This document shows positions 9,872 to 50,491 of a stretch of 64,000 bases of DNA, one piece after another (position 1 is the first letter of the stretch; every line of letters begins with the position of its first letter). This DNA is from Thozetella sp. PMI_491 (Eukaryota; Ascomycota; Sordariomycetes; Chaetosphaeriales; Chaetosphaeriaceae). Under the pieces are notes generated by a model. That model worked only from the letters and a program-made list of their open reading frames with translations, had not been told where the DNA came from and did not search any database. The DNA is taken from positions 124,001-188,000 of the forward strand of contig MU270051.1 of assembly GCA_021432635.1 (NCBI GenBank), read 5' to 3'. A program made the translations under genes and the position numbers.

Positions 9872-11411
9872 TTAGTCGCCGTTGGTCAAGCTGAACGCCT
9901 CAAACGTAACACCCTGAGCGCTATCCCAGCCCTCTCCTTCAGTGCGGGCAACCTGTGCCCATCCCCTAATCATAGCACGCCAGTAGCACACCTCGGCAGC
10001 AGGACTGAAGTAACCGCCGTCGACAAACAGCTCACGCTGGCGCCGCGCAATGCCCTCGGCTACCTCGGGATGGTCCTCGAGCCACGCGACCGTCTCCTCT
10101 AGATCAGACCAGTCCGGTGCAACGAACAGGATGTTCGCCTCCTCTGGGGAATACTGCACGGGCCATACCTTGCGGACCCGCTCTGAAGGCTGCCAGCCGA
10201 GCCGCTTCTCGCCTGCTGGTCCGGAGCCGGGTCCGGGATTCGACCCACTTCCACCCGCCTTGGCGCCATGTTTCGACCTCCCCGGGGCCAGGTCGAGCGT
10301 ACTGGAGAACAGCGGGCGGATCATGTGCGTCGTGTGCTGGAGCCACTGGATTGGGGGTGTGATGACAACGCTTGCACACATCTGTAGAAACTGGAATCGG
10401 CCGCTGTATGCGATACCCTCGGTATGCAGCACATACTTGTACCGGCAAAAGTCTTCTATCGGAAGCGCATTGGTCGCATTTCCCCCGCTACCTTGCCACT
10501 GAAGGGCCTCCACGTCGGCCCAGGGCTTGTTCTTTGCCGCCGCAAGGAGGTTTTGGCGCAGACGCGGATTGTGCACGCTATTGAACCACGTCGTGCCTCG
10601 CCAGACCACCTTGCCGATTTTGCGATGCCACTGGCCTGGCGCTGCGTATGCGGCCTCTAGGGACGCGATTGCATCCGCTGCGCGGGATATAGAGCCAACG
10701 AAGGGAAGGTTCCAAGCCCAGAAGGAGAAATGTGGCATGAGGAAGACACGCGCGTCGGCATCTTTCGGCCGGTGGAGGGGATCCGCAGCCTGGCTATAGG
10801 CCCAGGCGGTTCCAAAAGGCGAATCTTGGAAGTTGAGAGAGAAGACGGTGTCGGGCAGGGGCGTCGGCGAGGTCAGAACAGCACGATGAAGCTGTTGCAG
10901 AGCGGCAGTGCGAGACTATGGCTTGGTGAGATTCCATGAGTAGAGACATCTGGGGGGGGGAGGGGGGGTTGGACCGCGACTTGCACGAACATTCAGCATC
11001 TCTCGCGAGAGATCGGATTTTCTCTGTGAGTGAATGATATATATCTGCCCCCATTAGCTTTACACGGAGGTGGCAGCCGGGTCGCCGCGCGCCTACTTGT
11101 CCATGTTGTATCCTTCCCTGGAGAGGCCCTAGATCTCCAGTCTGCTTCACCTTGAAGGGACCTTCGGCCACGACGTCGTCTATCTGGCTAGTTAAACCGG
11201 GAAACGTCGCCGCACATTGCGCTTCGTCGAGGGAGAGATTGTGAAGCTGGCCTAGGGAGGGTCTTTGCCGCTGGCCAGCTGCAGGTGAATGGCCGTGGTC
11301 GCTGGTGTCGGAAACGAACAATAGGCAGTACAGCACTAGGCAGCACCCCAAAACCCATGTTGCTTGCCTCAACTGCCGACTGGGCTTCAGTTTCATCTTG
11401 TCGCCGCCCAT
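9872..11411 (-). CDS. GT90 (CAP10-like) glycosyltransferase, type II membrane protein
   Basis: Three exons on the minus strand: 11097-11411, 10991-11044, 9872-10915 (470 aa). The middle exon is only 54 nt and encodes IYIIHSQRKSDLSREMLN, matching the family motif (LYI..., DLSREML). The introns are GTAGGC...GGCAG and GTTCGT...CATAG. The N-terminus has a single hydrophobic anchor (about residues 17-34), as in Golgi type II enzymes. Next come FPGLTSQIDDVV, DLGPLQGRI, DTVFSLNFQDSPFGTAWAYS, LMPHFSFWAWNL and the C-terminal RYKYVLHTEG...SGRFQFLQMCASVV, which is typical of CAP10/KTEL proteins. Relatives transfer xylose or glucose, for example to capsule glycans; the donor and acceptor here are unknown. 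The second intron carries long G runs on the plus strand (10951-10968), so the local base count may be unreliable. Confidence 0.88.
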
Positions 11412-12244: not shown

Positions 12245-14568
12245 TCAACTGCGTGTCTTTCTGAGCGCCGCAATCCCAAACCGTTCAAGCCCTGCAGGTT
12301 TGTCCAAGTATGTGGAAGGCCCTAGCGTAATTTCACTCTTCTTCCGCGCTGGGCTTTGTTGTGGCGACAGAGGCTTGGACGATTCCCTGCCTTCCCAGTG
12401 TCTCGCTTCGAGAGGAAGGGGCTGCCACCAGTTGCCCGTCCTAGCGTGCCACTGCGCGCTGCATAGCTCCCATAAGCGACTTGTGGCTCGCTTATACGCA
12501 AACCGTTCGTCCTCTCCTGTGAGTGCTTTTGCATCGGAGAAGTTGATCTCCTTACGCGGTTCCAACTTAAAGTCCGAGTCCTGGTCGGGGTCATACTTCG
12601 CATTAGGCGAGTCTGAATATGTCGAAATATTTGGGCGGAACGGCGACATCCGATCCTGGAAAACCTCTGCTATCGTCTCCGAATACGTCGCGTCGCCGTC
12701 CTCCGCTGCCTGGCCTTCAGTCATCGGTGCATCCGCGGTTAAAGACTTTTTGGTTTCCGGGAAGAAGAGATCGTCGGGAGCGGCTTCAGCTCTGACGATC
12801 AGTTTACATCGTGCCTCACTAACCACATCCGAGTCAGTAATTGCCTTGAGAGGTATGGGACATGCCTGACGACCTCAGATAGGCACCGATCGGTCGCAAC
12901 TGCCCATTGATGGGCCAGCCATAGGGTTGGAGAGGCAGTTTCCCGTCCGCATACGTACTAGAGCGCGTCCAGCATGTTGATGAATCTCCTGGCCTCGTTC
13001 TTCATGGAGACAGGCAGGACTGGGATGTGATCGATAATGAAGAGTTTGTAGTTCGAGGCTAGAGATATATAATCGGCTGGCCCCAGGGCTTGAACAAGCT
13101 CTTCAAAGTCCCAATATGTCGCTCCGTTAGATTGCTTTGGAACGGGTAATATCCTGCCATAAACCACCAAGCTTGCAGGCTGCCACGAAGCGCGTTGGGA
13201 TGAGGAATCATCGGTGCGGGCCGAAACAGCTCTGTGCCAAGCGTGGTCGCCATCTGCGGGTGTGAAGTACATCGCCGGTCGCTTAGGACGGCCGTGCTCG
13301 TCGACGGCGGATAGCCGTTCGGCATCTTCTTGCAAATTCCCAGTAGGTGCTCCGAAATATGCTAGAGGCAAGGACAGCTCCTCCGATGGCGCTTGGGGGC
13401 CAACGGTAGCACCTTCATTCTCTCGCCTCCTCCAGTCACGAACGCCCTCTATATGCCAGAAATCACATCTTGCCTTAAGGGCCTCCAAAAAGGCTGCGAA
13501 GTCGCTTGTGTGGCCGGAGAGCTCTCCCGGCTTTCGGCTTCCGACCCCAAGCAGCTTCTCAACGAGACCCCCAGTTGGGGGAGGGTAGAACCGACTACCC
13601 ATGGCCCTTTCCAGCTCTTCAGGCATGCGGTTGGACGAGGCGATCAATACACCGCCCAACTGGAAGAATTTCATAAACAGACTGTTGATGATCTTGCTGG
13701 CTGCCCTATCGGGGAGCTGGAACTCGTCGAGGAAAAGAATGGGAGATTCCTCTACAATCTCTTTCGCCAGCCACAATACGGAATACCCTCGCTCATCCAA
13801 GGCGCTGTCGACTCTCCGGAACTCCTCTAGCTTCGAGAAAGCGTAGAGCATGAAGGTGTTGAAGTGCCATCGCTTTTTGCGGCTTGTGGGCAGTCCATCT
13901 GCCAGAAGATCCAAGAGCATGGACTTTCCAGTTCCGACCTCACCGGAGAGGAACAAGCCCTTAGGGGAATCAATCTGGGCGGCGGCCTGCTGTGAGTCAA
14001 GAACACGCGTTAGTGCGAGACTGCCTCTGCCCTCGGTCTTGTGGAAAAAACGAGCAAAGAGAGGATTCCGGCGGATGGGATGGCTTTCGGTAGCTAGGTC
14101 GTTGATGCCGTTCCTCCTCTCCGAGTTGATGGCGTTCGTAATCTCGCGAAGTCGCGTGCGGTACTCCGGAGCTGGCACGTACTAGAAGATCCTCAGCTAT
14201 TTGCTAATATTCCAGGGGTATCTCGGGAGGCCCAAGTCATGTCTCGGGAGTAGAGCTTATGTTAAGAGCCCCGTCAGGTATACAGCTGTGTGTAGGATAC
14301 CGACCTATGAGGGCGAATTAAGAACATAGGAAGTACTCACGTCCTTCAACTCGAGGTAGAGTTTTTGGAGGTGGTGTGCCAAACGACGTTGGGCAGGATC
14401 GGGGCTGCACACCCCCGTGGCTATTAGAGAATTGTACTTCACTAAGGGATCTGTAATGGCCAGCGAACTCTTCCCTGCCGACCTGGCCCGGCTCATGTTG
14501 CGACTTTGCGCTCCGAGGCGGGGGAGGGTGGCATATCTGTTCGACAGAGTGATAGCTGTCATTAACAT
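12245..14568 (-). CDS. AFG1: Mitochondrial AAA ATPase Afg1 (LACE1 family)
   Basis: Three exons on the minus strand: 14341-14568, 12959-14181, 12245-12818 (674 aa). The splices rebuild LELKD/YVPAPEYR and NEARRFINMLDAL/YEARCKL. Afg1 is an inner-membrane-associated ATPase involved in turnover of mitochondrially encoded respiratory subunits. Visible: a presequence-like N-terminus starting MLMTAITLSNRYATL; Walker A GEVGTGKS (residues 156-163); Walker B ILFLDEF (Asp228, Glu229); and the family tail RCKLIVRAEAAPDDLFFPE. About 160 low-complexity residues follow that tail, so the protein is longer than yeast or human Afg1. If the last intron (12819-12958) is retained, a TAG follows the DAL codon at once and the C-terminal 190 residues are lost. 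The ATG at 14568 was chosen as the first in-frame ATG; 14562 is also possible. Confidence 0.92.
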
Positions 14569-15435: not shown

Positions 15436-18400
15436 ATGTTTTCGCCATCGGTCCAAGAAGGCGGCCCGGCCAGGGGCACCAGGAGTAGTCGACGACGCCA
15501 GCGACCTCTAAGCTCCGATAGCTTGGTCCAGCAGCCAAAGGCCAAGCGCCAGAGGGTACCGTTGAGCGAGAATACCTTTGTCAATCCCGACGCGCCGCCA
15601 GAGACCTTCGAGGTCAAGCCTGACAAAGTCGACTTCCTGGGCATCAAACGCGACGGAGTCGAGAACTTTGGTGCACCACGCAAGGAACTCAGCGTTCGCT
15701 CCAAGAAGCCTAAGCCTGGCGAGAGACTGGGGAAAGGCGATGGAAGTGTGGTATTGGTACGCCGAGAACCACCCTCTCCCTCCCAAACCGCCGACGACCC
15801 TTTCATGAAGTAGAGTGTTGCCGTGACTAACTGTTGAGGTAGACTACTAACGCGGCTTATACCGTATCCAAGCTGCCGGCACTGCCCGACAGAATTCGTG
15901 CAGATTCTCAGAGTATGTCGAGACAGCTCGCTCCCACGCACCTGCTGTCAATGCCTTGCTAACTGTTCTCCAGATCGGCAACACGGCGCCATCTACTCGC
16001 CTACTGGTTACGCTCTCAGCCTCACCCATACACATGCTCTTGTCTGGCCCTATACCTCGACCACCGCATCCCCCGAGACCTTTACGTTTGCGCTTCCGTA
16101 TCCTTCAAAACATGCCGCAGACCCCCTCCCCTTGGGGTCCTTGGTCTCGCCACCAGCCTCCTCCGAAGAGCCTGGCTTAGTTGTTGTCATGCCTGTTAGT
16201 GGTAAGATCTCTTTCTGGGAATCGATTTCTAGCGCCGCGACGCTTGACTTCATCCGGCAACAGCGCAGTGGCGTGGAGGACACGATACACGGCATGTTCT
16301 CGGGCGAACATGTGATCCAGATAGTTGATGCAGAGTCTGCCGGATTCATTCTTGTCTTCAGCAGCGGCCGCCTTGCCTACATGAGCGTTCGAGACAGCCA
16401 TGGCCGCCCAGCTATTTCAGTTCAGTTTCTTCGGAACGGCCTCGGCAATGCCTCTGGAGGGTTTCTCGGAAGCATCCGCCATGCTCTCACCAGCTCTTCG
16501 ATCCGAGCGGAAATCGCAGCAGTCAAGGCAAGCCAGGGAACCCAAATTGGAGAGCGCATCGTGGTGGCAGCAACCTCCAAGGGCAAATTACACTCGTGGA
16601 AGCTACATCGTGGCGGCCATTATGACGCTCTAGCCGAAGTTGATGTTCGTGAAGATGTTGCCAAAGCGTTACTGCAGCAGGCAGGACTTTCCACGGCAAA
16701 ACCTCCGCAAGACACATTGGAGGTTCTCGATTTCGCGTTTGTTCCCCGGGGTCTCGAAAAGAAATATGTCGAAATGAACCGCCTAAACGAAGCCTTGTCC
16801 TCTGGGGACGAGTTACTCCAACACCTTGTCCTTCTCGTCTCCATCGCTGGCCAGAGGCGTCAGGCCCGGTACGCTTTAGTTGAGATCGTCCTCTCTGTTA
16901 CCGGTTATCGACTGGGCATGCTTCGACTTTTGACGTCCTACACAAGCCCTGCCAGAGCTACGGCGCTGGAGCGACCGCGGATCTATCTTCCTCGGCCCGG
17001 GATCATCGCCTTCATCGTCTTCGACCGGGCCGTCGTGATTGCCTCGATAGCGTCACTCCCCGACTCACCTGACTCGCAGCTCCGAGAGGACAGCCATATC
17101 CTGCCGGCCGCTTTTGAGGATGTGATCGATTTTCGAGACGAGGATACCTTACAGATTATCGGCTCAGGAGTGGAAGAGCCCACCGGGAATAACCAGGACG
17201 ATACCCGCAGCTCGCGACACCGCACCAAGAATCCTGCTGCCGTGCTCCTGGTCCAGGGCGTTGGTGCTCTTCGCATCTCCATTGCAGACGTTGACCGATT
17301 TGCAAGCGAGCGGCCGCCTGAGGTAACAGCCAAGAGTAAGCTTGAGCAAGCCGTCTTCTTCGGAGTTAAGGACGACAATCCGCTTGTATTCCAGGGCCGC
17401 AGGGCATTACCGTTCGCGAGCAAGGACATAGGTGATGCTGCAATCCAGCTGAGCCATGAGATTGTGGCATCCAAGACTTCTTTCATCAGTGGTGTGCCGG
17501 CATCGCTCGAGAACAACATGAAAACGAGGTCCATGTATTTGGATCGGCTCATTGCCCATCTCAATGCGCTGGAAGTCGACTTAGACAGACGGACACGATG
17601 GATGCTGCTTTATAATGCAGAGAAGATGAACGTGGCAACCCACATCTGGCAGGAGAACGAGAGGTTCTTGGCAGAACGTCCGAAGAACAACAAGAAAAAT
17701 CTCGTCACGGAAACCATCATGTACATCCACGAACAGCAAAAGACGGAAGCCAACCCGGAGATTGGGGAGGTCGACCCGGTGAGGCACTGGTTCATCAACG
17801 ACGTCTGGCGGCTCGACATCTTCATCGCGTGGGCATACCAGATGATCAAGTATGCTTACACAGGGCGCGGGACCGACGAGTCGGGTATCAACCGACTGCT
17901 CTACGAGGCTGTCACCATCAACTCCCTGGCCTTGGCCAAAGCACACGAGTACCGCCAACAAGTCTGTCACGTGTATGGACTGAAGCCAGCAGATACTCCG
18001 GAGGGCGACGCGATGCCCGAACCTTGGACATCCAGCCAGTATATCACAAACAACCTAAAACGGCTCATCGAGTTTTGCTATCAATGGCTCGATACGCACT
18101 ACTCTCTCGATGCCGGCTCGCCCAAGTCATCGGTCGAACCGGGGCCTCTCGAGGTGATTCGAAACACGCTGCCCTCTCTCACTGGCGAGTACTTTACTAC
18201 TCTAAAGGAGTATGCTCAGTGGGCTTCCAATAGCCGCGACTCACGGACAGTCGAGCTCGCGAAGGTCTGCCAGGAAACCCTTGCCGCCAGGGACGAGAAG
18301 ATCCTAAAGCTCAAGGACTACGACTTGTGGGATGAAGCCGTCGCTCTCGCCAAAGAGTACCGTTCGTATCGCGCCATGGCCCAGCTGATAGTGGACCAGA

Positions 18401-19697
18401 TTGAGGCCTACCGACAAGGCGCAGCTTTGCGGGGCATCCCTCCGGCCCAGGTGCAAGAGCACGAGTTGGCAGCGAAGGCCAAGGAAGAGCAGCTGGGCGA
18501 CTTGTTCGACCAGTTCGGCTTGCCTTTCGCCTCCGCTGCATACGAGGTGCTACTCAATACCTGTGGCGTCCAAGCCGTCCTCGACTTCAAGCACGACAAG
18601 AAAGGCTTCGTCACCAATTTCCTGCGGACTAGGCCAGAACTTGCTAAGATTTCCTGGATTAACGACGTGCAGCGAGAGGCGGACATCGATCACGCGGCCG
18701 AGAGTCTACTGGACCTGGGGCTCACACGCGAGCAGCAAGTCTGGAACAAGAAAATTGAATTGAGCTTGAGCAAGTTGGCGCTCATGGCGGAAGAAACCCA
18801 AAGGTCGGCGACTAGCGACAGCAGCTCATCTGAGAACGAGATCAAGAAGGGCGCCAACCTCGACAAGGTCGACCGTGAACTCGAAATCATCAAGATCCAG
18901 GACGACCTTTATGGCCAGATCCTTCCATCGTGCCAGGATGCCGTGGACGCAGCAGCCGAGCTAGAGTTCGCCATGAAGGAGCATGCCGTGCTGATTCCTA
19001 AGAAGCAGAAGGCACTCAATCATGTATTCGAAGAGAGCATGGCCCGACTTCTCCGGCACGAGGCACTGGATGCGTCCTCCCTGATTGACCTCCTTACCCT
19101 GGCCTACCTGGATCTCAAACACCACGACGCCATCGGCTACCAGTTTGATCTCGCGCTCAAGGTTGCTAGTCTCGCCTTGAAAGGCGAGGAGTTAAGCAGC
19201 GCGCAGCGGCTCATCTGGCGACGATGCTACATCCGCGATGATTGGAAGCGCGTAAACGAGACCAACATGAAGGACGACTTAGATCAGCTCGCGGTTCTCG
19301 GTGAGACCGCGGCCTACCATACCCTCTATTCCATTGTGGCAGATCGTAAGTCTTCCCCCCTGTCAGTTTTGTCGCTGCCTCCGTTTCTAATATGCGAGCA
19401 GCGGACCTCGACAAAGACTCGTGGCCTACTGTAAAACCATCTGAGGCTCTTGGTGTCTTCACTGAGCGATTGGACCGCCGCTTCGACGATATGGATGATA
19501 GTGTCCGTGGCATGCTGCTCGACGCTATGCGCTGGGAGGATGCCAAATTGCGCGCCTTCATAGAGAAGAACCGCCTGGATGAGTGGTACTTCACGACGCT
19601 GGAAGTGGCTAGGAATACGGTAAATTACAAACTGAGGGAGACTGACGCTGCCCAGGCTGACCGAGAGGTCAATGGTGGCGTAACCTCAACGCTTTGA
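15436..19697 (+). CDS. NUP133: Nucleoporin Nup133 (Y-complex)
   Basis: Four exons: 15436-15756, 15843-15912, 15974-19345, 19402-19697 (1352 aa). The small 70-nt exon encodes TTNAAYTVSKLPALPDRIRADSQ, and the next exon continues RQHGAIYSPTGYALSLTHTHA, the conserved entry of the propeller. Nup133 is a scaffold of the Nup84/Nup107 Y-complex in the nuclear pore. Layout: a basic disordered N-terminus (about 1-110), a beta-propeller (about 130-560), then a long alpha-helical stack (about 600-1350) with motifs such as FINDVWRLDIFIAWAYQMIKYAY and LLDAMRWEDAKLRAFIEKNRLDEWY. The length is normal for filamentous fungi. The last intron (19346-19401, GTAAGT...CAG) replaces the in-frame stop at 19434. The start is the first ATG after the pyrimidine-rich leader. 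Confidence 0.93.
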
Positions 19698-23571: not shown

Positions 23572-25103
23572 ATGGCTTCCTCATCCTCTAACGTGGTTGG
23601 TGTCCACTACCGGGTGGGGAAGAAGATTGGAGAGGGATCATTTGGAGTCATTTTTGAGGGGACGAACTTGCTCAACAACCAGCAAGTTGCCATCAAATTT
23701 GTGAGTTCTTTCCCGAGGCCAGCCCCAAACGCTAGCAAATATTTACCGAAGGATTTGTACAGGAACCTAGGAAGAGTGATGCCCCCCAGCTCCGTGATGA
23801 ATACCGAACCTACAAGATCCTTGTAGGCTGCCGTAAGGAATCCTCTTGTTTTGCCTCTCTTATCTAGGAATGTGTAACCTCGCAGCTAATACGGTATGCA
23901 GCCGGCATACCTAATGTCTACTACTTCGGTCAAGAGGGCCTTCACAACATTCTCGTCATTGACTTGCTGGGGCCCTCGCTGGAGGACCTCTTTGATCACT
24001 GTAACCGGAGATTCAGCATCAAGACGGTAGTAATGGTCGCCAAGCAAATGGTATCTTGTCCCCTTTTCCCATTACTATCGAGTTGCCTCACCTGACGCGT
24101 TCCTCCTCTCTGCTAGTTGTCCCGGGTCCAAACCATCCACGAGAAGAACCTGATTTACCGAGACATCAAGCCTGACAACTTCCTTATCGGTCGGCCGGGC
24201 ACCAAGACTGCCAATGTGATTCATGTCGTGGACTTTGGTATGGCCAAGCAGTACCGGGACCCTAAGACGAAGCAACACATCCCGTACCGCGAACGCAAGT
24301 CTCTGTCGGGCACGGCTCGATATATGAGCATCAACACTCACTTAGGACGGGAGCAGTCGAGGCGAGACGACCTCGAGGCTCTCGGCCACGTCTTCATGTA
24401 CTTCCTTCGCGGTGGACTCCCTTGGCAAGGCCTCAAGGCGGCGACCAACAAGCAAAAGTACGAGAAGATTGGGGAGAAGAAGCAGACGACGCCTATCAAG
24501 GAACTCTGTGAGGGCTTCCCCGAGCAATTCAACCAGTACTTGACGTATGTGCGGAACCTGGGTTTCGAGGATACCCCGGACTACGACTACCTGCGAGAGT
24601 TGTTTACCAAGGCCCTGAAGGATGCCGGTGGCGTGGAGGATGGTGAATATGACTGGATGAAGATTGGCAAGCACGACAAGAAAGGTGATTGGGACCGACC
24701 CGGGGCGCTACACAACCCTAACACGAAACCAGGCCCTTCCAACCGCGAACTCCACGGCACTTCGAGAGGAGGCACGACCCCACACGCGAGCGACCCCCGA
24801 GCCCAACAACTTACTATGGCCCGTTTAAACGCCGCTCAACCCCCGACCCCTCCGACCAAGCAAGGTCGGCAAAACGCCCCCGGCGCGTTGGCAACGCCGA
24901 GGGCCGGGGCCGGGGGTTTCCGGGACATGGCGACGCCGACCGGATCGACACAGGCCCAGTTCCAGAACAGCACACAGAACCTGCCGCAGAGGCCGATGGC
25001 CCATCCTGGCAACATGACCCAGACCCAGCCAGCTAATCCCCCGCCCGCGCAGCCTCAGCCTACCGGCTTCCAGAAGTTCATGAAGACACTCTGCTGTGGC
25101 TAG
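23572..25103 (+). CDS. Casein kinase I, Yck1/2 (CK1-gamma-like) type with Cys tail
   Basis: Four exons: 23572-23700, 23763-23832, 23902-24050, 24117-25103 (444 aa). All junctions give the family sequence [44 protein letters not shown] and [21 protein letters not shown]. It is a Ser/Thr kinase. Visible: glycine loop GEGSFG, VAIK Lys42, catalytic Asp132 in [12 protein letters not shown], the CK1 signature SINTHLG and the EALGH box. The [28 protein letters not shown] start resembles yeast Yck1/2 rather than Hrr25. After about residue 310 there is a Pro/Gln/Gly-rich tail ending LCCG; the Cys pair fits palmitoylation and plasma-membrane anchoring as in Yck proteins (inference). Yck kinases act in glucose sensing, endocytosis and morphogenesis. 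Confidence 0.94.
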
Positions 25104-27356: not shown

Positions 27357-27959
27357 GTTGGCGGGTTTGTATAGGTTGACCGGGGCGTTCGATCAGCGCC
27401 AATGTCTCGCTGGCAATGTGGAATTCGTAGCCGCAGGCAGACGCTCGAGGTCAATGACCAACGCAGTTCGGCTGTGTGGATCGGCTCAAGATGTGCGTGT
27501 GTGGTGAGGGTCTGGCTACGGTAACACGCCAGCAGACTGGAAGCACTTTAGAAGCTGCCACGTTCAAAAAAAAGGGAGGAGCCAGGGGCTGCTTGTCACG
27601 AAAGTGGGTATCATCACGTGTCCTGAACCTCTTCACATGCGGCACGGACCATATGGGGGGGAGGCGGAAATTTTAGCGTGGTAGCAACGGCAGCCTTTGG
27701 GTCGTGAGAAACTCGCGTCGCAACCATCGTTCCGCCCTTGTAATCCGACGACTCTTTGATCCATCACCTGGTCGCCCCAACGCCCGACTTCCATCGTCCA
27801 TAACACAACCGCAGCTTCTGGTCCTGGAAGTCACCTTCTTCGCTAATTTAAATCCTGTCCCCCGCCTGCGCCTCTTCAGCGACCTGCCTGCACATACGCA
27901 CGCCCTCCCCTCCACCAGGCCCGCTGTCGCGCCGTGTGCGCCGCCGCTATTCCTCCGAC
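27357..27959. promoter_or_regulatory. Shared divergent promoter, p24 / SWC4
   Basis: A 603-bp spacer between divergent start codons. It should hold both promoters. No clear TATA box or named site was found. Confidence 0.5.
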
Positions 27960-29813
27960 ATGACCTCCTCCGATGTACGCGATGTGCTCAATCTACCCTC
28001 CGTTCATGCGGGACCCCGGCCGTCCAAGAAGCAGAAGACGTCAGCCTCTCGCCCGAATCTCAAAGGGCTTGCTCGAGAGGTGCAGTATCTCGGTGGAGAC
28101 AACCCCATCGCGATAGTCCCCGAGGTATCCTTCTTTAAGAAACGGCGGCTCGCAAACAAGCCAGCTGCGAAGTGGGAGCTTAGGCCGTTCGCAAATTCTG
28201 CTCGGGGAGATGATGGCGCGCTGCTGCTTCGTCACTGGAGACGCAAGACGACGGACGGGGATGCTATGCAGGTGGACTCTGAGCCCCGGCCAGAAGACGA
28301 CAACATAGAGAACCAAGAGAGCCCCGAGAAGCTCGAGGATTCTGCATTTTCCAAGTACAATGTCAAAGTCGACGTACCCCAGTACACCGAGGCTCAGTAC
28401 AACAGCAATCTCGAAAGCGACGACTGGACTAAAGAGGAGACGGACTACCTGCTAGATCTCGCGCGGGAGTACGATTTGCGGTGGGCTCTCATCTGGGATC
28501 GCTATGATTTTGCACCCGAGGGGTCTGAGGGAGAGGGCGGCAATGGCACTAGCACGGCCGTCATACCTGCCCCGAAACAGCGATCGATGGAGGATCTGAA
28601 GGCACGATACTATGGGGTTGCCGCAAGGATGATGATCGCCCAGACGCCAGCCCAGCACATGAACCGGCAGGAGTTTGAGCTATACGAGACCATGCTGCAC
28701 TTCAACCCGGCCCAGGAGAGGACTCGCAAAGAGTTCGCAGTCAGCACCATGGCTCGTTCCAAAGAGGAAGCCAGGGAGGAGGAATCGCTGCTCCTGGAGG
28801 TCAGGCGCCTGCTGGCGCGATCCCAGCGCTTCAACGAAGAGCGCCGGGAGCTATACAATCGCCTCGACTATCCGCATACGGAGACCGATATCAACGCATT
28901 CAAGAGCTCCAACGGGCTCAACACCTTACTACAGAACCTTATGAACATCGACAAGTCTAAAAAGCGCAAGAGCCTTGTTGGCCCGGAAAGCGCTGCCACC
29001 GCCACGGCCACCGCCACAGCGCCGGGGAGCGCCGTATCCGAAGGTCACAACCGTCGCGAGAGTATCGCCGCATCGGTCAGCCACAGAGATTCGATCGTCG
29101 GCACGCCTGCAACACCGGCAGAACCGACTCCCACCTCCAAGAAGAAGGGGGCGCAGCCGCCGGAGCGCAGGAAGCTCACTGAACTTGAAGAGAAAACATA
29201 CGGGGTTTCCCACCACGACAGACTTGGCAGCGGCCCCACCTTCCGGTACGAGAAGATCAACAAGCTATACAGTCATAAGTCTGGGCAGCAGCAGATGCGT
29301 ATGACAAATGCTCTGAGCGAGCTTGATGTCCCCAGCCGACTGGCTATGCCGACTGCGGCTGTGGTCACTCAATTCGAGGTGCTGTGGGCCGCCGTCGCCA
29401 ATTTGGTTGATCTTCGAAAGACCAGCGATAAGCTCGAGGCTGAAATTAAGGTAGAGGAGGCACGGAAAGCGACTCGTGTGGAGAAGCAGCCCGCTGCTGA
29501 GAAAGCGGACGCTAGCGAGGCGACGGGCACTGAAAAGGGACCGGATGCCGCAGTTGTTCCTGGGGAGTCCAAAGTAGAAGCCTCCAAACAGGGCCCTGCA
29601 GAAGAGAAGACTCAGGCCGAAGGTTCTGACGGATCAGAAATGCAGCCCCCGGCTGTAGATGGCGAGAAATCAGCACCCTCGCCCGTTGCCATCAAGGAGG
29701 AGGAAGGCGAGAAGGATAAGGTGGTTCGCCCAGGCAGCAGCGGTGCACACAAGCGTAGCGCAAGTGTGCTAAGTGTCACAAGTGATAAAAGCGCCAAGAG
29801 GCAGAAGAAATGA
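27960..29813 (+). CDS. SWC4: SWR1/NuA4 complex subunit Swc4 (DMAP1 homologue)
   Basis: A single exon of 617 aa. Swc4/Eaf2 is shared by the SWR1 complex (H2A.Z deposition) and the NuA4 acetyltransferase. Visible: N-terminal SSDVRDVLNLP, the PVPEVSFFKKR-like segment, the SANT/Myb domain (about residues 130-180, core DDWTKEETDYLLDLAREYDLRWALIWDRYDF), and the DMAP1 C-terminal block (about 400-490) with EEKTYGVSHHDRLGSGPTFR and RLAMPTAAVVTQFE. The last 120 residues are Glu/Lys/Ala-rich, probably disordered, with a basic end (SAKRQKK). Translation is taken from the ATG at 27960; the frame extends upstream only through a GTG. Confidence 0.94.
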   Translation: MTSSDVRDVLNLPSVHAGPRPSKKQKTSASRPNLKGLAREVQYLGGDNPIAIVPEVSFFKKRRLANKPAAKWELRPFANSARGDDGALLLRHWRRKTTDGDAMQVDSEPRPEDDNIENQESPEKLEDSAFSKYNVKVDVPQYTEAQYNSNLESDDWTKEETDYLLDLAREYDLRWALIWDRYDFAPEGSEGEGGNGTSTAVIPAPKQRSMEDLKARYYGVAARMMIAQTPAQHMNRQEFELYETMLHFNPAQERTRKEFAVSTMARSKEEAREEESLLLEVRRLLARSQRFNEERRELYNRLDYPHTETDINAFKSSNGLNTLLQNLMNIDKSKKRKSLVGPESAATATATATAPGSAVSEGHNRRESIAASVSHRDSIVGTPATPAEPTPTSKKKGAQPPERRKLTELEEKTYGVSHHDRLGSGPTFRYEKINKLYSHKSGQQQMRMTNALSELDVPSRLAMPTAAVVTQFEVLWAAVANLVDLRKTSDKLEAEIKVEEARKATRVEKQPAAEKADASEATGTEKGPDAAVVPGESKVEASKQGPAEEKTQAEGSDGSEMQPPAVDGEKSAPSPVAIKEEEGEKDKVVRPGSSGAHKRSASVLSVTSDKSAKRQKK

Positions 29814-37819: not shown

Positions 37820-37966
37820 NNNNNNNNNNNNNNNNNNNNNNNNNNNNNNNNNNNNNNNNNNNNNNNNNNNNNNNNNNNNNNNNNNNNNNNNNNNNNNNNN
37901 NNNNNNNNNNNNNNNNNNNNNNNNNNNNNNNNNNNNNNNNNNNNNNNNNNNNNNNNNNNNNNNNNN
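37820..37966. other. Assembly gap (147 N)
   Basis: Undetermined bases flanked by a C-rich sequence on the left and a T run on the right, which suggests that a simple repeat prevented sequencing. Confidence 0.99.
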
Positions 37967-39753
37967 CGGCTTAGCCTTTTTTTTTCGCTCTCGTCTTTCT
38001 GGGACGAGGCCGGCCGATATCCGCACCGTATGTGCCGTACCTGCCTGCATGCCAACCGAGCCTCTTTTCTCTCCTCCCCTTCCCCTACCCACCTCTCCGG
38101 CCCTTTCGCTCAGCTGGCTTGCATCTCTCCCTCGAACACGCCGTTGGATCTGCGCCAGACAAAGCCTCTCTCCCCCCCTCTCCTCCCCCCTCCCTCTCCC
38201 ACGGCTATACGAGCCGGAGACAGCAGCTTGCGTGGAACGGGAGGACAGGAACCCACGCACACTTTGCCCGGCTCTGACGGAGCCTGAGGCCGCCCCTAGC
38301 CGTCGCCACCGCCTCGACCCTTCCGACAGGCGCAGCAGCACTTAATCGCGCGTCAAATTTCTCCATCCAAGCAAGCGCCCGTAGCCTCCCGTTTGCTCGC
38401 CCACATCGGACCCAGCGCAAGCGTTTGGCACCAAGGGCCAAAAAAAAGAGGAGCAAACACGAAGCTGGATCGGCCCCAGCTGAACTCTTTAGCTCAGGAC
38501 CTGGTGCGCCAATTGCGGAGCCAGCGCACTTTTATAACCACGGCCGCGCCTCAGGTACGGGGGATCCCAAGTCAGACGGGGCCGCGACTTTTTTGCCCGG
38601 ACCTGGTTTGCGACTTGTGCAAGGACGGCATAGAATCATAAAGAGGGGCATTTCGAGCCATCCGACTAGACACAAACTCGGCATCTCTCGCCTGGCTTGT
38701 TGCGCAAATCAGAGCCTCGTACTTGCAGCATTTGCTGTGGCTCTGACGTGTCACACCTTTTGGCACTCGACTTCTACCTCTTTGCGCGCACACGCACCTG
38801 CACACACCTCTACACACTCGCTCTCTCCTGCAAGACTCGTTAATCGTCTCGCCTCCCTCTACCTCTCTTTTCCTTCTCCCTCCCCCCTCTCTTCCCTCCC
38901 TCCCTCTCGTTTCACTTACTTCCCTTTGCCTGCGGGCACCCGACCCATTCACACTCGGAGACTGCGCCGTTGGTGTGAGCGAGTGAACGACGCACCGCAG
39001 TGGATAGACGTAGGCCGCTACGGTTTGGGGGACAGGATCGCAAAAAAGCAACCCGAGGAAGGGAAGGACTGTGTACGAGAGCAGGCCAAAATCAAAAGAG
39101 CGCCCCGAAGACAGTTTTCGCTTGAACCAACAGCATCTGCGGCGCGCGCATCCGCGGCACTGGCTTGTCAATCGGACAGCCCTGATCCCTCAAGAGCGCC
39201 TCCCCGACCAGGTCGTCAGATCTGACACGGCGCCCGGGAGACCAGGCGAGGCAGAGACAGCGCACGCGCCGTCCACTCCCCCGCCTTGTTGGGACTCCGA
39301 TCTAAGCAATCCTGCAGGCTGATCACACTTTTTAAACGCCGGCTACCCAGGTACAAATCTCACGAGCTCAATAAGCCCCCGGGCACTCACCCACCGCCCT
39401 TTTTTATTTTATTTTTTTTTGTTTTCGGCGGGGACCGTATAACATTGTCCTCTTCTGGTCGGCGTTCTCCTTCTCATATACCCTGCTACCCCACGCAGAA
39501 TCCCCTCCCTTCTCATCGACGTGTACAGCCACTCTCGTCTTGCATCACCTTCGGGTTTGCGACTGTGGAGGATTCGGAACCGAGTTGTGTTCCCCGGGCT
39601 TACACTCTTTCTCCCCGTCTTTGCCTCCGGAGCGGGAAAAGAGGCTTGATCCTTTCCTTCTCACGCTACCACAGCTCGCCAACGCGCATCTGTTTCGCGG
39701 GCAGACATCGTACCCGCAACATCGCCTCCCGGATGCAAGCCTGATCTTGTTGG
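37967..39753. other. Gene desert, right part: pyrimidine-rich leader region
   Basis: Strongly C/T-rich on the plus strand, with a long CT tract at about 38830-38935 and another near 39440-39640. This is typical of the promoter and long 5' leader of a fungal regulatory gene, here the zinc-cluster/acetyltransferase gene. No protein-coding exon is supported. Confidence 0.5.
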
Positions 39754-42243
39754 ATGGTGATACCTGAGAAGACTGAAGCATTGGGGTCTCCCGCGACGAC
39801 ACCGCGCCTGAAGATGGCCACATTTACTGCCTTGAACGGCGCCTCACCCAAGGCAACCGAATCATTGAATGGGAGTGTAGAGATCAGCCGCCCGGGTTCG
39901 GCGAGTAGGCCCACCGCGGATACTGACGCCAGGCCCGCGGGCGAAGTGTCCACCAGCCAGAGGGAAAGGGAAGGCTGGGCTGCTGCGAACCAAGACCGCC
40001 CGCCATATCCATCGGCCAGCTATCCCAACGTGGAGAGCTCTCCTCAGAAACGCAAGCGGTCGGACTCGGCGTCACCGACGAGGGGAGAACGCCAGTATGG
40101 ATCCGCATCTCGGTCGGAGGACGCGTATGATTCGCATAGGCCGCACTCCAGCATGCACGATCAGTTTGGGCCCGCGCACCGGGACTATCGGCCGTACGGA
40201 GAAGAGAGCCGGGAGAGCAGCGACCGATGGCCACCGCGGAGCAGAGATGAGAGAGACTCCGGGTACGACCAGCCATATTCGGCTGCGCCCACTTCTGCTC
40301 AGCCGGATGAGCAGATGAGCCCTGGCAGCGACGAGCGGTCGATGGCTTACTCGCAGGGACACTACACGTCGGAGCAGCGGAGAGATGGCTTGATACAGTC
40401 GGATCCCAAGAAACGGAAGCGGAACTTCAGCAACCGAACCAAGACCGGGTGTCTAACCTGCCGCAAGAGGAAGAAGAAGTGTGACGAGGCGAAACCCGAG
40501 TGTGAGTTTCCTATTCATTGCGGCTCTCTTTTCTCGCATTATTATCTTCTTGCTCCCCACCTACTATCGATCGCAAGCGAGACGTACGTGAGAAAGGTTG
40601 TGGGTGCGAGGTGATATTCTTTTTTTTCTTCTTTCTTTTGCGTCCTCGCGCATTGACGGGGGGATTTGAAATGGTGAGGCTTATGATCCTTCCAGGTAGC
40701 AATTGTATCCGGGGTGGCTTCCTCTGTGCCGGGTATCCACAGCAGCGAGGGGCATGGCCCAAAGCGGAGGCCAAGCCTCCCCAAATCACCATCGAATCCA
40801 AGGATCCTAACTATGTCCCTCCTGGGGCTTACGGTATGCCTCAGCAGCCAGCGTACGGGAACCAGCCCGCATCGGCAGGCAGTCAGCAGCCGCAGTCCCA
40901 GCAACAACCGCAGCCACCGCAGCAGCAACAGCAGAAGCGAGAGCCTCTTCCCTACGCCCGTGGCCAGCCCCTTCGCATTGATACACCCCAGACCCGGCCA
41001 CTTCAGACGGATGATGACAGGGCGACGGCGTCGACCTTGGCCACTGCCTCGTCCGTTATCAGCCCCGAGAACAAGCTCTCTGGGCTCTCTAGCAGCACTA
41101 CATATACCTCCGGCAACGTATTCCCGACTCCCATCTCTGCTGCCCCAATCAGTGTCTTTTCGGACCGCGCAACCAAGGACTACCAGCGAGTACCACCGCT
41201 GCACGATCTGACCAGGACAGATCCCGAACAAGACCAGCAGCCACCTCCGCCGCCGCCACCACAGCAGCAACAGCATCTCTCAGAGTCCCAGGGGCAGCCT
41301 CCGCAGCAACCTCCGCAAGGGCAACAGGCGACCCTACCGCCGCCTCCTCCACCGCCACCGCCTCCAACGCAGGGCAACACGCTCCCCAACATCAACTTTC
41401 TTCATCGGTCTACCAGGACGTCGTCGCCTCCCAGCATGACCAGCACATCTCCTGCAGGCACCAGCGCGGTCCAGGCGACGGCTCAGCTTGCGCTTTCTCA
41501 TACGCAGTTCGATAGGCAACAGCGTCGTGTTGAAAAAGATGAGATGCTCATTGGACGCCCGTACTACCCCTTTGATCGGGAGCTCGTTCTCGAGCGTCAG
41601 AGATGCAGCGTCGCTTGCTGGAAGTTCAACAATCTTACGAACCCGACGACGGGTGTGTCGGTGGCCGAGCGGGCGAGACTATTCCGTGACATCCTCCAGC
41701 CACGGGAGGGCGTCCAGCTGTCGGCGACCCAGACTTCTCCGGTCACGCACACCGGGCGCGTTGGCGAGAACACCACGGTCGAGACACCTTTCAACTGCGA
41801 CTATGGCTACAACATCCACATCGGGAGCAATGTTCTAATCTCGCGCAACTGTCTCATCAATGACGTCTGCGAGGTCCGCATTGGCAACAACGTCATCATC
41901 AGCCCCAATGTCTGCATCTACACGGGCACCTGTAGCACCGATCCTACACGCCGCGGTGGCAACACGGGCCCGCAGCAAGGGCGTCCCATCCTTATTGAAG
42001 ACGATGTGTGGATTGGTGCCAACGCAATCATTCTTGATGGTGTTCGCATAGGCAAAGGATCCACCATCGCGGCCGGCTGCGTTGTAACAAGCGTACGTGC
42101 TACTCCTCCCTTTCTTCCATCCGTGTATACAACAGACAAAGCACCCCTCCAGGCCAACCGACTAACTTGCGCCCCTTTAGGATGTTCCCAAGAATGTCGT
42201 CTATATTGGTCGTCATCACCAGAGGCGCATTGGCCACGTTTGA
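39754..42243 (+). CDS. Zn2Cys6 DNA-binding / hexapeptide acetyltransferase fusion protein
   Basis: Three exons: 39754-40501, 40696-42092, 42181-42243 (735 aa). Intron 1 interrupts the zinc cluster and splicing restores it: Cys233 in [13 protein letters not shown], then [13 protein letters not shown]. The middle (about 275-520) is low complexity, Gln- and Pro-rich. From residue 529 comes a maltose/galactoside-acetyltransferase-like module: the Mac helix region [18 protein letters not shown], then left-handed beta-helix hexapeptides ([50 protein letters not shown]). It ends with the short last exon [20 protein letters not shown]. Bacterial relatives carry a catalytic His in YTATHP; the matching place here reads YTGTCS (Cys662), so classical acetyl transfer is doubtful. 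It may be a transcription factor with a trimerising module. An ATG at 39814 has better start context and would remove 20 residues. Confidence 0.88.
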
Positions 42244-44579: not shown

Positions 44580-47337
44580 TCAGTAGTAGATGTTGAGGCG
44601 CTGGTTGGCCTTTATTGGTGCATCCTCCGTAGCAGCCGCAGGTGCGGTAGGCGCAACGGTCGAAGCCGGCGCGACAACGGTGGGCTCATTTTGGTTGAGC
44701 AGGTACGAGTCAATGAGGTTCTAGAGGCCCAGTCAGCTATTTGGTTACAGTGTCTGCTTCTCCCGAAACCCCTTCATCGATACATACCCAGTCTAGGTTG
44801 TTCGGGTCGCTGATGAAGCTGTCAAGGGGCATCACGTCCGTGTCCATAAACCCGGCATCGTCATTTCCGATGGGTGCTTCAGCATTCCAATCTGCAAAGT
44901 CAAAGACATCTGCACTTGAGAAGCCAGAGCCCGTAGCTGGACCGCTGCAGCCGGCTAGCAGAAAAGAAGAAGGCTGAGATGTGCTGGAACGCGATTTCCT
45001 GATATCTTCCCGGGAGACACCTGCTTCTGGTTGTTGTGAGGTCACAGAAATATTCACTGCGTCGTTCTCCTTCTCTAGGGAACCTGTTCCCGCAGATTCC
45101 GGTAGCACGGTGGCTACAGTAGGCACAGTTCCGGTAGATGGACGTACTGAAGTATCAGTGTCCATGAGCGCCACTTTCTTTAACATGGCCCCGAGCACAT
45201 TGGTGGCATGCTGTGCTTCTGGAGACATGTGTCTATGCTTGGACCATGTGTTGTAGGCTTTCTGGAGGATGGCTAGCTTTCGGGCTCTATCCGCCGGTCT
45301 AGAACAGCTCGTTAGCATGGACGACCAGAATGGGAGGCAAGACAGCACCACGTAGATCTTCTGTATCTTCCTAAACAAACATGCTGGCTGAATGAGGGTG
45401 TTCGGGGGGCGAGAGGGTAGAGAGAACGAGGTCGGGGCCTCATGGAAGCTCGTTCACACTTACTCCAAGTCACTCTCATTCAAATCCAGGCAGAGAATCA
45501 TAGCGCCCAGCAAGAAATCGTGGAGAGTAATGTTGGCCAAGAGGTGCCGCTCCGGATACAGGCGACCTCCAGGAGCAAGCGCTTCGACGAGCTCTGCATT
45601 TACCTCCATAATCCTCACGGCAGCCTCCCGACATTCCTTGCGCGAGAGCGCATACATGGGGTCCTCCTTTCGAAAAGTTAAGAATGGACGGTGTAAGACA
45701 CACATGGCCTTGAGGTGCATGATCTCGAGGCTGATCCTCTGTAGGATGTGGTAGCCAAAGTCGGTGAAGGGGATGTCCTGGATATGTAGGTAGCGGAAAT
45801 CCGGAGGTACAGTCTTGTAGGTGGCACGCAGGGCAGCGTCCAACTCGAGGGTTGCGCTGTAATCCGGCTGGTCGATGCGGAGTGCGTGCTGGCCTAACCG
45901 GCGGAGCAGGCGTATGAGGCGGGATTTATGACGAAAGTACAGAATGGGGGTGAGCTCAGTCTCGGGCCTTGGGGGCGGCAGGACCTCCATGTGTTCGTCG
46001 AAATCCTCGTCCGCCAGGTTGCTAGGCGCCTGGACATCGCACTCAGCCTCGTTGACAATAGCGGGCATTCCTAGCTGAAAGCTATACATGAGGTCAAAGG
46101 CTTCCACCGCGAACCAGGTGCGCCGCCGCATTTCGGCTTCGAAGGGCGTGATATGGGTATTGCGACTAGAAGTGAGGCTCACCGGGTCACGATGATAGCC
46201 CATGCGTTGGGCTAGACGAGTAGCCAGTGAAAAAATGGACCATAGATCCGGGATATGATCTCCTTTGTCTGCGATGCGGGAGAGGGCATGGATCATGAGA
46301 GCCTCGACGGCCAGCGGCTTGGCCGTAAGGTACTCTCCAGCCATCAGGCACCTCACTCCATACCTCATAAAACGGAACCGCTGAGGATACGGCCTGTCCT
46401 CTTTTGCTGCTTTGATCGTGGCAGCAGTGGATAGCAGAGAGAACAGAATGCTGATCCACAGGAAATCCACTTCGTGGGGTGCCTTCCAGAATGCCTCATA
46501 TTCCCTACGGAAACGCGGGACGTGAAGCAGAGGCGATGCGCTGAACTTGTCTTGGAAGTAGGAGGTGAGAAGAGCATCTGCCTCGCTCCGCGGGGGAAGG
46601 GCATCGAAGACGTCTTGGATGGTGATGTCATCAACGGAGCCGAACAAGAGACAGGGCCCATCTGCTTCTGATCTGGCGGGACTTGACTCTTCTGGGGATG
46701 AGTTCGAATCGTTCTCTTCTAGATAGACTTGTAGGTCGTGTATTGACTCAAGCACAGCCTCCCAATGCGTGGCACCCACGAACCGTCCCTGGTTGCTGAG
46801 ATGCCCGACCGGCTGCGAAGAAGATTCGGGACTGCGAGCAGGAGACCCACCACTGGCGCTCGAGCTTTGTCGAGCCTCAGGAAATAAGGGCTTTGTCGAA
46901 GAAGCGTTAACATCGCCGTCGTAGCGAGCCGGTTCGGGAGTCTCTTGGACGGTCTGGCTGCTTGCCGTTCCGCTCTCTGCTGCCGGACGGTTCGACGTGA
47001 CCAATTCGTTCACTAGCCGCTCCAACTGCTGCAGTCGGATTGCTACATGGCCACGGGCAGGTGTGGGATGGCCGCCTTCGCTCTTATCTCCAGGGCTAGA
47101 CTCGTTTACCTTGGCGGCGCTGGCGAAGGTGGAGGTCGGGCTGTACTTGCAAGTGGTACCTTCTCCGCGCTTGACGCAGGCACCGCAAGCCGGCTGGACC
47201 TTGTCACACTTTGCCTTCCTGTTGCGACAGGACACACAGGCAACTGGGAAACGGGTGCGTTTGTAGACCCGTCGTTGAGCGTTGGCGGATCGGATGTCGG
47301 CACGAAAGACGTGCGTATACTCGGCAAGCTCCGACAT
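44580..47337 (-). CDS. Zn2Cys6 fungal-specific transcription factor
   Basis: Three exons on the minus strand: 45464-47337, 44788-45298, 44580-44720 (841 aa). The zinc cluster is at residues 34-63 (ACVSCRNRKAKCDKVQPACGACVKRGEGTTC), preceded by a basic stretch and followed by a short coiled-coil-like linker (IRLQQLERLVNELV). The fungal transcription-factor homology domain is at about 240-520 (core LLTSYFQDKFSASPLLHVPRFRREYEAFW). The C-terminus (NLDW/NLIDSYLLNQNE) is restored by the last intron (GTATGT...CTCTAG). The intron 45299-45463 has a second in-phase acceptor at 45371 that would add 24 residues. Target genes are unknown. The ATG at 47337 is the first in the exon. Confidence 0.88.
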
Positions 47338-48736
47338 TGCACGCGGCGAAACGCTGACGGAGATTGAGCAGGTCCGGACTAGGGACCGGAGACGTTGTTA
47401 GCCCGATCTGGCACGCAGAACACGGGGACCGGCAGGTTGTAGGAAGTGCCAGGCCAGCAGCAGCAACCAATAGCAAGCAAAGCAACGAGCGGAGAGGGAG
47501 ACCCTGGGCCGGGCAAGGCAGCTCGACATACAGAGAGACCACGGCGTCGTGATGACACCCGCACTGACAAAGCCGAGACGCAGAGGAAACAATCTAGTTA
47601 GACTGCGTACCCAGCAGCTTCTCTCCTTTCCCGAGACTTTAAGTGTGAAATGCCCACCTGACGGGATGGACCAACGCAAGCACGCTGGGGCTAGGCTGTA
47701 TGGAATGGACTTGGGCCGTCGTCTATCTGAAGGGACTGGCTAGCAGCAGCGATGCTCACATACGATATTCAATTCGTCGTCGTAGGCATAAGAAAACAAC
47801 GACGACTGGGGCTGCAAAGTTGGGGGAAGGCTCAAAACTGCTGGATGTTCCTGCCCCCAAAAGAGTTGGCTGGTCTCCGGGGAGGCAGCAACACTAAGAG
47901 AAGACAGTGCGGCGGATGGCCACCGGAGATGAGTTGGTCTCCGGGTGGGGATTTTTTGTCTTCTTACTACCAAATGCTCTCGCCCATATGCCTACCTGCC
48001 ACATTTAATCTGAGCTTCGTCCGAAAGAGGAAATTCACGTCTCCGAAGACGTGTTCTGCACTGTATTTTACACTGTATACTGTCTAATCGCTCCGTTCCT
48101 AACTTAGCCACAGCCTACCTGAACTTGCTTGCTATAGCCAGCTACGTGAGGCGCTATAGATTGATGTACAGTAGTCTGCGTTCTCTCTGTCCTCCGCGCC
48201 TCGGCTTTGATTTAGACACTCCCCTTGTTGGGATAAGGGGGCAGCCCCGCGAGTCGGATATAAAATATGATAGCCTTCTCGTTGCATTTTGCTCTCTGTA
48301 TTTAGCGGCATGCATCTGCTCCATCTCCACAAATTCGCTTTTGCCCACGCAAGCCCAATGTAAATCCATTCTGCCTCTAGGGTGCTTGTCCTACAAAAGA
48401 GAACGACTTCGATTGTCCTGTCTGCTAAGGGCGAGCGGTTCAGGTACAGTTACGCATGCCTCTCTAGCCACTAGCCATACTCAAAGAGGGGGGGATTCGT
48501 TAGCCAGCGAGATTAGGCTAGAGAAATAGAAAGAGGGCGTGCGAATCAGCAGGAATTACTAGAGCGTAGAGCAAGCGACCTGTGCTTACTCCTTGATCTA
48601 AGATCCGGTATCACCTATGTAGCACGGCTAGAGCAAGGCTGTAGGACACATTTTCACTGTTTAATAATTTTTTTTTCTCTGGGTGGAGGTTTGGTGGAAT
48701 AGATGGGTGTTGGTCAGAGAGCCGCTATGCTCTTGG
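47338..48736. promoter_or_regulatory. Promoter region of the zinc-cluster gene and AP-3 mu 3' flank
   Basis: Both neighbours are on the minus strand, so this holds the promoter and leader of the zinc-cluster gene and the 3' UTR of APM3. The right half is AT-richer. No gene is supported. Confidence 0.45.
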
Positions 48737-50491
48737 TCAACACCGTATTTCCACTCCGCCTTTGCTCACCGTGAGATACTTCACCCCTTTGTAAGGTTTG
48801 ACTGACTCGCCAAGACCCCGGCTCTTCCTTGGATCCACGATGATGCTCTCGACCTTGATGCCACTGGGAAGCCAGCCTTTCACTGAAAAGCTGACAGATG
48901 CCGAGCTCGGCATCAAAATCTTGTTCTGTTCTACTTTCTTTTCATCCTTGCCGCCTTCGCGAGGTTCTTCCTGCTTCTTTGCTTTGGTCGGTGAGGTGGT
49001 CTGGTATGGTTCATCGTAGGAGTAGTCTTTCCCGAATCCAAAACCCGACTGTTCGTTCTCGGCGTCGTCACCTGAAAGCGGTCCGACGACTGTGCATCTG
49101 AGACCAAAGTAGGATGCACCGGCAGCGAGCTCTTTGTTAGGGATGTGCCACTCGAGAAATCGATCGCCAGGGTTGTATGTCGCATCGCCCTTGCTTGGTC
49201 GGACGTCGGACAAGTTGCGAACATCGGCCGGCAGTGGCACGGACACCATCAGATCCCCTAGGGAGGGTGCGGCAGGCGTTCCGGCATGCGCCGCTCCGAA
49301 CCCTCGGCCCGCCCCGCCAGCACCTCTTCCTAGGCCGCCCGGGCCGGAGCTCCCGCCTGAGCCGAAGATTTTGTTGACGTTCAGCCTCAACTCGAAATCG
49401 GACCCGGCGGACCCGAGCCCGGTCTTGATCTCGAGGGTCACTGGAAGCTTCAGGTTGTTTGAGGTGAGCCTGCCGCTCTTTCCATTGGTGAATGGGAGGA
49501 GATCCACCTCGTAGCCAGCTAGGATAAAGCGCCCGTCCGGGGGTATAAAGCTGAGCTCCCCTGGCCTCTCCTTCCATCTGGCAAGTCGCACGCAGGGATG
49601 GAATACGGGGAGCTCAATGATGCTGTCGAGGTTGTGCTTGCCCGATGGGCCCGTGAGGCTGAGCACGATGTCCGGGACGCCCGACACTTTGGAGGTAAAC
49701 GCTATCGTGCCGTTGGCAAATGCTGCCAGCGGTCTTCCGGAAGGCGCCAGGGTGACAGAGAGAGTCTCTACCACGTCGGCATAGAGCTCGTTGGACGTAT
49801 GTCGCACGTTTGCTCGCCGCCACGGTAGAGCAGACGTGTTCTGGGTGACGAGAGAGGGCGCGCTAGAGTTGCTAAAGTTGGTGCCGAAGCTTGGCTTGCT
49901 GGGAGGGTAATTAGCCGCTACCAGCGCATAAAAAGGCAGGGTGTTTCCAAGGGAAGGCCCTTTGGTACCTTGGTAGGTTAAGATTGCCAAGTAGCTTGCC
50001 CATGAAACCCTCCACCTCGACCACGTCCCGCAGCGCGTTTGGCTCCGTGGTGCTTATCGTGCCGGCATCGCACATTTCCGTGAGTAGCTGTGCCACTATA
50101 TCATAGTTGTTCTCGATCTTGGGCGCCAGCAAGGGCGCACCGAGGAACTCCTCGAGAGCATCGACAATGCGGTGGAGGAACTCGAGCGCAAGCAGCGGCT
50201 CGACCTCGGATGAGGTTGTCAGGAGGAAGAGGAGGTTGGCATGGCTCAAGCTGAAGACCAGGGTCGGAGGGTTGGTGTTGGGGAGGTAGATGAGATTTGG
50301 TCGGGGTGGCGGGTGGTCGAGGTAGAGGGGTAGCAGATGCGCCGCGGAGAGTGGCCGCGAGGTATATGTGTGCGAGAGAAGTAGGCTGCTATGGAGAGGG
50401 GTTAGCTTGAAGCTGTTGCGGCTCGTCCTCGGAACAGTATGCCTCACTTGCGGTCGTCGTAGATGTGCAACGCCTCGATCGCGCCGTTCAT
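48737..50491 (-). CDS. APM3: AP-3 complex mu subunit
   Basis: Three exons on the minus strand: 50448-50491, 49969-50388, 48737-49898 (541 aa). The first exon is only 44 nt (MNGAIEALHIYDDR) and is spliced (GTGAGG...CCATAG) to NSLLLSHTYTSRPLSAAHLLPLYL. The second intron (GTACCA...GCTAAT...CCCAG) joins LLGNLNLP to SKPSFGTNF. AP-3 sorts cargo from Golgi/endosomes to the vacuole. Visible: an N-terminal longin-like domain (about 1-150, with KIENNYDIVAQLLTEMCDAG), then the mu homology domain starting at PWRRANVRHTSNELYADVVETLSV. That domain binds sorting signals. There is an insertion of Gly/Pro-rich sequence (about residues 325-350). Divergent from the small membrane-protein gene at 50853. Confidence 0.92.

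Follow-up and report, generated by a model that had tools for sequence, protein, structure and literature searches.

Zinc-cluster factors are the largest class of fungal regulators and are described as monomers and dimers (PMC8079791). Some of them carry a domain resembling bacterial sugar acetyltransferases in the same protein. In Botrytis cinerea, Bcin04g03490 encodes a protein of 754 aa with a central GAL4-type cluster, an unstructured linker termed Mac_assoc and a C-terminal LbH_MAT_GAT domain, and full-length orthologues are reported only in Pezizomycotina, those named including Neurospora FF-7 (NCU04001) and Fusarium graminearum FGSG_10069 (GzZC087) (PMC8079791). Natural alleles of Bcin04g03490, among them C330Y, Y633D and G722R, were concluded to be loss-of-function; Y633D and G722R fall in the C-terminal domain and abolish function, and the authors speculate that substrates such as chromatin proteins are acetylated by this protein (PMC8079791). 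In Neurospora crassa, FF7 is described as combining a Gal4-type cluster with a maltose-acetyltransferase-like domain, and it interacts with the GATA factor SUB1, although the pull-down worked at low efficiency (PMC4378982). An AACCGC motif goes with its 2756 putative ChIP sites, and the factor was suggested to be necessary for transactivation rather than nucleosome eviction (PMC4378982). The motif is given inconsistently inside that paper, as AACCGC in the results and as AAGCGC in the discussion. According to the accessible portions of the literature, FF-7 and related factors govern sexual development and light-dependent expression, as well as infection in two crop pathogens, and ChIP-seq, knock-outs and loss-of-function alleles have been published for them (PMC8079791, PMC4378982). 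Both main papers term the C-terminal domain a putative or predicted acetyltransferase, and their accessible portions hold no discussion of its active site that we could find. Likewise, a search of open-licence PubMed Central, covering main texts as far as these were available, found no statement that the catalytic His is missing in the FF-7-type family.

Here, we show that a gene of this layout lies in the window, by which we mean the whole 64,000-nucleotide stretch of Thozetella sp. PMI_491 DNA analysed. Three exons at 39754-42243 (+) join across predicted introns, both bordered by GT-AG, into a 735-residue frame ending in a stop codon (Table 1), with the earliest in-frame ATG as the putative start. 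Intron 1 interrupts the codon of the fourth cluster Cys, C250, and stop codons are met if it is read through unspliced, while a CTAAC branch-like site is present within intron 2. Exon 2 is uninterrupted over 1397 bp, from the second zinc-cluster half into the beta-helix, and none of 2000 first-order Markov simulations of it kept the given frame open. Because the second cluster half and the beta-helix sit on a common open exon, we regard the locus as the one spliced gene that the initial annotation had proposed. The component parts named there are also borne out, namely a complete Zn2Cys6 domain, a Gln/Pro-rich linker and a maltose-acetyltransferase-like beta-helix. Specifically, the six Cys follow the canonical CX2CX6CX6CX2CX6C spacing (C233-x2-C236-x6-C243-x6-C250-x2-C253-x6-C260), the linker holds 49 Pro and 40 Gln in the 255 residues 276-530, and Pfam matches to Zn_clus, Mac and Hexapep (residues 681-714, E 8.2e-13) all exceed their own cut-offs. 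No Pfam domain was found in the N-terminal region of exon 1, no Pfam family named Mac_assoc matched in the linker, and no Fungal_trans match occurred in the 735-residue protein at E up to 1; inspection by eye after the zinc cluster noticed no coiled-coil dimerisation element.

Table 1 Features of the studied gene and of its neighbours in the window.
Feature	Position	Strand	Residues	Basis or remark
Exon 1	39754..40501	+		Basic KRKR stretches and Zn2Cys6 first half; start codon inferred
Predicted intron 1	40502..40695	+		194 bp, GTGAGT...TTCCAG
Exon 2	40696..42092	+		Second cluster half, Pro/Gln-rich linker, Mac cap, most of beta-helix; one open frame
Predicted intron 2	42093..42180	+		88 bp, GTACGT...CTTTAG
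Exon 3	42181..42243	+		Final beta-helix turn, GRHH replacing usual GxP, stop codon
Zn_clus (Pfam PF00172)	40444..40748	+	231-267	E 3.3e-10; split by intron 1
Pro/Gln-rich linker	40749..41537	+	268-530 (263 residues)	Composition
Mac, maltose acetyltransferase cap (Pfam PF12464)	41544..41699	+	533-584	E 2.7e-11; helices in model
Left-handed beta-helix	41781..42240	+	612-735	Pfam, predicted fold, Foldseek; split by intron 2
Ser632	41841..41843	+	632	LacA Asn85 column
Cys662 (TGT)	41931..41933	+	662	Catalytic His column: LacA His115, Maa His113
Trp688	42009..42011	+	688	Acetyl-CoA-site Trp kept, LacA Trp139
Aldehyde dehydrogenase	3025-4494	+		Pfam
Acyl transferase	5469-6578	-		Pfam
Family 90 glycosyltransferase	9875-10915	-		Pfam
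AFG1 ATPase	12961-14181	-		Pfam
Nup133-like nucleoporin	15838-19431	+		Pfam
Protein kinase	24117-25100	+		Pfam
DMAP1-like SANT protein	27852-29810	+		Pfam
Second Zn2Cys6 gene with Fungal_trans	45463-47397	-		Pfam; 3.2 kb downstream
Adaptor medium subunit	48740-50053	-		Pfam

The protein thus shares with FF-7 the presence of a Zn2Cys6 cluster and a maltose-acetyltransferase-like domain in a single chain, and with Bcin04g03490 and FGSG_10069 a central GAL4-type cluster followed by a linker and a C-terminal beta-helix domain, as these are described in the available text. The cluster lies at 322-360 in Bcin04g03490 and at 231-267 here, indicating a longer Botrytis N-terminus. Since domain order, spacing and size match, we infer FF-7-type membership by descent, the comparison with FF-7 and Bcin04g03490 being one of described architecture rather than of sequence. 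Canonical Zn2Cys6 factors, such as the one encoded downstream in the window, belong to the same zinc-cluster family, whereas the protein studied lacks Fungal_trans and has its cluster in a central position instead of near the N-terminus. The fusion architecture is therefore already known as the FF-7/Bcin04g03490 type, and its distribution and biology are in print, as far as the available text goes. What is new here is the pseudo-enzyme reading of the C-terminal domain, drawn from the residues of one species.

We aligned the C-terminal domain with E. coli LacA and Maa, with which it shares the Mac cap and the left-handed beta-helix, at 37% identity to LacA over 176 aligned columns and 39% to Maa over 172. 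The alignment puts Cys662 on LacA His115 and Maa His113, confirming the Cys for catalytic His that the initial annotation had placed from the family motif. Additionally, Ser632 occupies the column of LacA Asn85, which we take to belong to the active site; a literature search of open-licence PubMed Central found no paper confirming that role. The pseudo-enzyme idea raised earlier is strengthened by Ser632; the altered residues stand as observed, and a lack of catalysis is what they suggest. Ser715 and Gln729 occupy the columns of LacA Lys166 and Arg180, which presumably contact CoA. The bacterial enzymes further differ in having the usual GxP where the fungal protein has GRHH, and in being free of a DNA-binding fusion. 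Arg669 (LacA Arg122), His624 (LacA His77) and the hexapeptide glycines are retained, Gln676 aligns with LacA Met127, where Maa has Glu, and two additional residues follow Arg669 relative to both enzymes. A single miscalled base was considered as the source of Cys662 and rejected, because TGT is two changes away from CAT, the nearer His codon, and three from CAC. The available text on NeuO crystallography describes the catalytic His as common to all crystallised family members, the fold family as three-subunit enzymes, and acetyl-CoA users as carrying a Trp contributed by the adjacent subunit (PMC3046976).

The first survey of the altered columns comprised 87 homologues, being the best 80 of 578 from named genomes plus 7 from IMG/VR, with none dropped. 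These homologues are prokaryotic or from IMG/VR and were retrieved with short peptide patterns in which the His and Asn columns had no part; the patterns included the Trp688 column, so that conservation of the Trp in this set is partly by construction. The column of Cys662 was His in 87 of the 87, and that of Ser632 was Asn in 82; after thinning the same set to <70% identity the counts were 55/55 and 50/55. A second survey took the Mac domain as its starting point and covered 22 genomes to which first-survey loci had led; 30 of 45 matches, taken as loci, gave 32 distinct ORFs resembling the query, and every one of them carried the His, the Asn and the Trp (32/32 each). The two surveys overlap, some second-survey ORFs being first-survey genes. 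Among the IMG/VR loci and the best 80 of 578 bacterial and archaeal relatives we recognised no fungal relatives. A plasmid collection held 635 matching records, bacterial among the 20 matches listed, which were left out of the counts.

Across the 87 homologues (best 80 of 578 plus 7 from IMG/VR), 27 columns were conserved to at least 85%, and the Thozetella protein departs at 632, 662 and 727. At least three departures were also seen in 21 of these 87 sequences, so the number is not unusual; judged by sequence, what stands out is which columns are affected. Columns 662 and 632 belong to the active site, the former (His) according to the available crystallographic text cited above and the latter (Asn) on our own assumption. 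The third, a His for the Pro of the C-terminal GxP, is weak evidence, as it depends on the alignment and shifted by one column in that of the second survey. None of the three is altered in the paralogues of the same genome where readable, position 727 being readable in three of them.

The genome searched for these paralogues, whose genes seem to resemble those of filamentous ascomycetes, spans 72 Mb in 157 contigs and yielded six paralogous loci, two of which look like near-identical copies, with the catalytic His and the Asn in 6/6 each. A 50-row tree took in three of the six, the other three being left out by name; those included form a supported clade (99/95) that excludes the protein studied, which had no supported partner. 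The cluster motif occurred only at the studied gene among 10 loci scanned with flanks of ~1.5 kb (L006, L009 and L013, which are the same places as other loci, were not scanned). A genome-wide Zn_clus search, in which 150 of the 905 candidates were scored and the split cluster of the studied gene was not picked up, gave no match closer than 20 kb to any of the remaining loci. We noticed that two maltose-acetyltransferase-like loci, L010 (G000:C8:775577-776141, -) and L007 (779179-779804, +), form a pair ~3 kb apart with the catalytic His in both. Near-identical acetyltransferase-like copies, also with the catalytic His, lie on different contigs (L011, G000:C11:656128-656400; L012, G000:C28:796760-797032), and each match is broken by an in-frame TGA, perhaps an intron. 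One zinc-cluster match, at G000:C47:473236-473337, was listed in an open frame of 23139 aa, which is perhaps a long N run reading as open.

An AlphaFold2 single-chain model covering the 181 domain residues encoded by exon 2 (the last 20 missing) reached a pLDDT of 88.7 and a pTM of 0.84, with the ten-residue block around Cys662 averaging pLDDT 92 and the following block 77. Foldseek against the PDB returned Geobacillus Maa (2ic7) as the top match (TM 0.82, 1.6 A), with a TM of 0.80 to LacA (1kru). Behind 2ic7 came other Maa and LacA structures, several of them CoA-bound; ranks 1-26 had TM values (by query length) of 0.75-0.82 and were nearly all Maa/LacA-type enzymes. In the model, therefore, the predicted scaffold is intact despite the loss of the catalytic residue.

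Overall, we consider it probable that the gene encodes an FF-7-type Pezizomycotina developmental regulator whose C-terminal domain is a non-catalytic, probably trimerising platform that may also bind a ligand. DNA binding, the SUB1 partner, the transactivation role and the requirement for the helix domain are taken from the available text of papers on relatives. The zinc cluster would bind DNA at a short site (CGG lies within the complement of the FF7 motif AACCGC). Reach and perhaps activation would come from the long Pro/Gln-rich linker. The Maa-type beta-helix would be required as a folded interaction platform that probably trimerises, letting the protein self-assemble and presenting an interface to partners, SUB1 for example; it would not work as an acetyltransferase, given that the catalytic His and the putative active-site Asn are both gone, but binding of acetyl-CoA or of a ligand resembling a sugar may persist, for which the retained Trp leaves room. 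Among the functions suggested by the initial annotation, namely trimerisation, ligand sensing and Cys chemistry, the trimer appears likeliest by analogy, because enzymes of the fold family are described as having three subunits. A trimeric zinc-cluster factor, if real, would stand apart from its class, whose members act as monomers or dimers according to the available text. Against this reading, Trp688, Arg669 and the hexapeptide glycines persist, as expected of a site that is active or binds CoA, and the Cys, seen here in the one fungal species compared, could be private to it. The Botrytis alleles show that the domain is important but cannot tell a scaffold from an enzyme, because Y633 and G722, which by arithmetic from the C-terminus rather than by alignment correspond to about Tyr619 or Tyr621 and Gly702 or Gly704, are probably structural positions at which the alleles disturb folding.

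Extending the non-catalytic, trimerising platform to the whole FF-7 family is more tentative. All members would then be trimeric zinc-cluster regulators whose C-terminal module, once a sugar acetyltransferase of bacterial type, has lost catalysis and now serves assembly and metabolite sensing, a proposition that we hold possible but rather doubtful. If it were true, the trimer would carry three flexibly tethered DNA-binding clusters, and the published chromatin-acetylation proposal would be wrong.

As a special case of the platform, acetyl-CoA or a sugar bound at the trimer interface might alter DNA or partner binding, making the domain a metabolite sensor. We regard this as unlikely, although several observations fit it: the CoA-site Trp is kept, the Trp of this fold comes from the adjacent subunit in the available crystallographic text (PMC3046976), and ff-7 expression is lower in a col-26 deletion on amylose in the accessible part of published work. 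Conversely, the C-terminal GxP and the columns of LacA Lys166 and Arg180 differ (Ser715, Gln729). CoA contacts may therefore be weakened, if these positions have the contact role we assume.

It is distinctly unlikely that the change is specific to Thozetella sp. PMI_491, with most FF-7 orthologues keeping the His and the activity. The comparison covers a single fungal species, which leaves room for this reading, but the protein agrees with 24 of the 27 strongly conserved columns and its frame is unbroken, which is not how a decaying gene looks.

We give little credence to an active chromatin acetyltransferase, which would modify sugars or proteins at the promoters it targets, with Cys662 or another group standing in for the His. 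The fold and the CoA-site Trp688 are retained, and acetylation of chromatin proteins is the speculation found in the available text of PMC8079791. Nevertheless, the His is universal in the two overlapping sets of homologues (87/87, best 80 of 578 plus 7 from IMG/VR, and 32/32) and in all crystallised family members (PMC3046976, available text), and the LacA Asn85 position is altered as well. By sequence position, none of the domain's remaining His residues seems capable of replacing the catalytic one, neither His624 nor His727/His728, the latter pair judged unlikely as a substitute base for its place at the C-terminal end. The lost catalytic residue points instead to a mechanism other than the published suggestion. 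Finally, the notion that two neighbouring genes have been misread as one, for which a gene model predicted from sequence could leave room, can practically be discarded, as one unbroken exon carries both the second cluster half and the beta-helix and an equal fusion is documented for Botrytis and Neurospora.

The upstream region was also examined for FF7 motifs. AACCGC is absent from 37967-39753 and the alternative AAGCGC occurs there once, so self-regulation is unsupported. A gap in the assembly or a withheld stretch would account for the 147 consecutive N at positions 37820-37966, 1.8 kb upstream of the gene.
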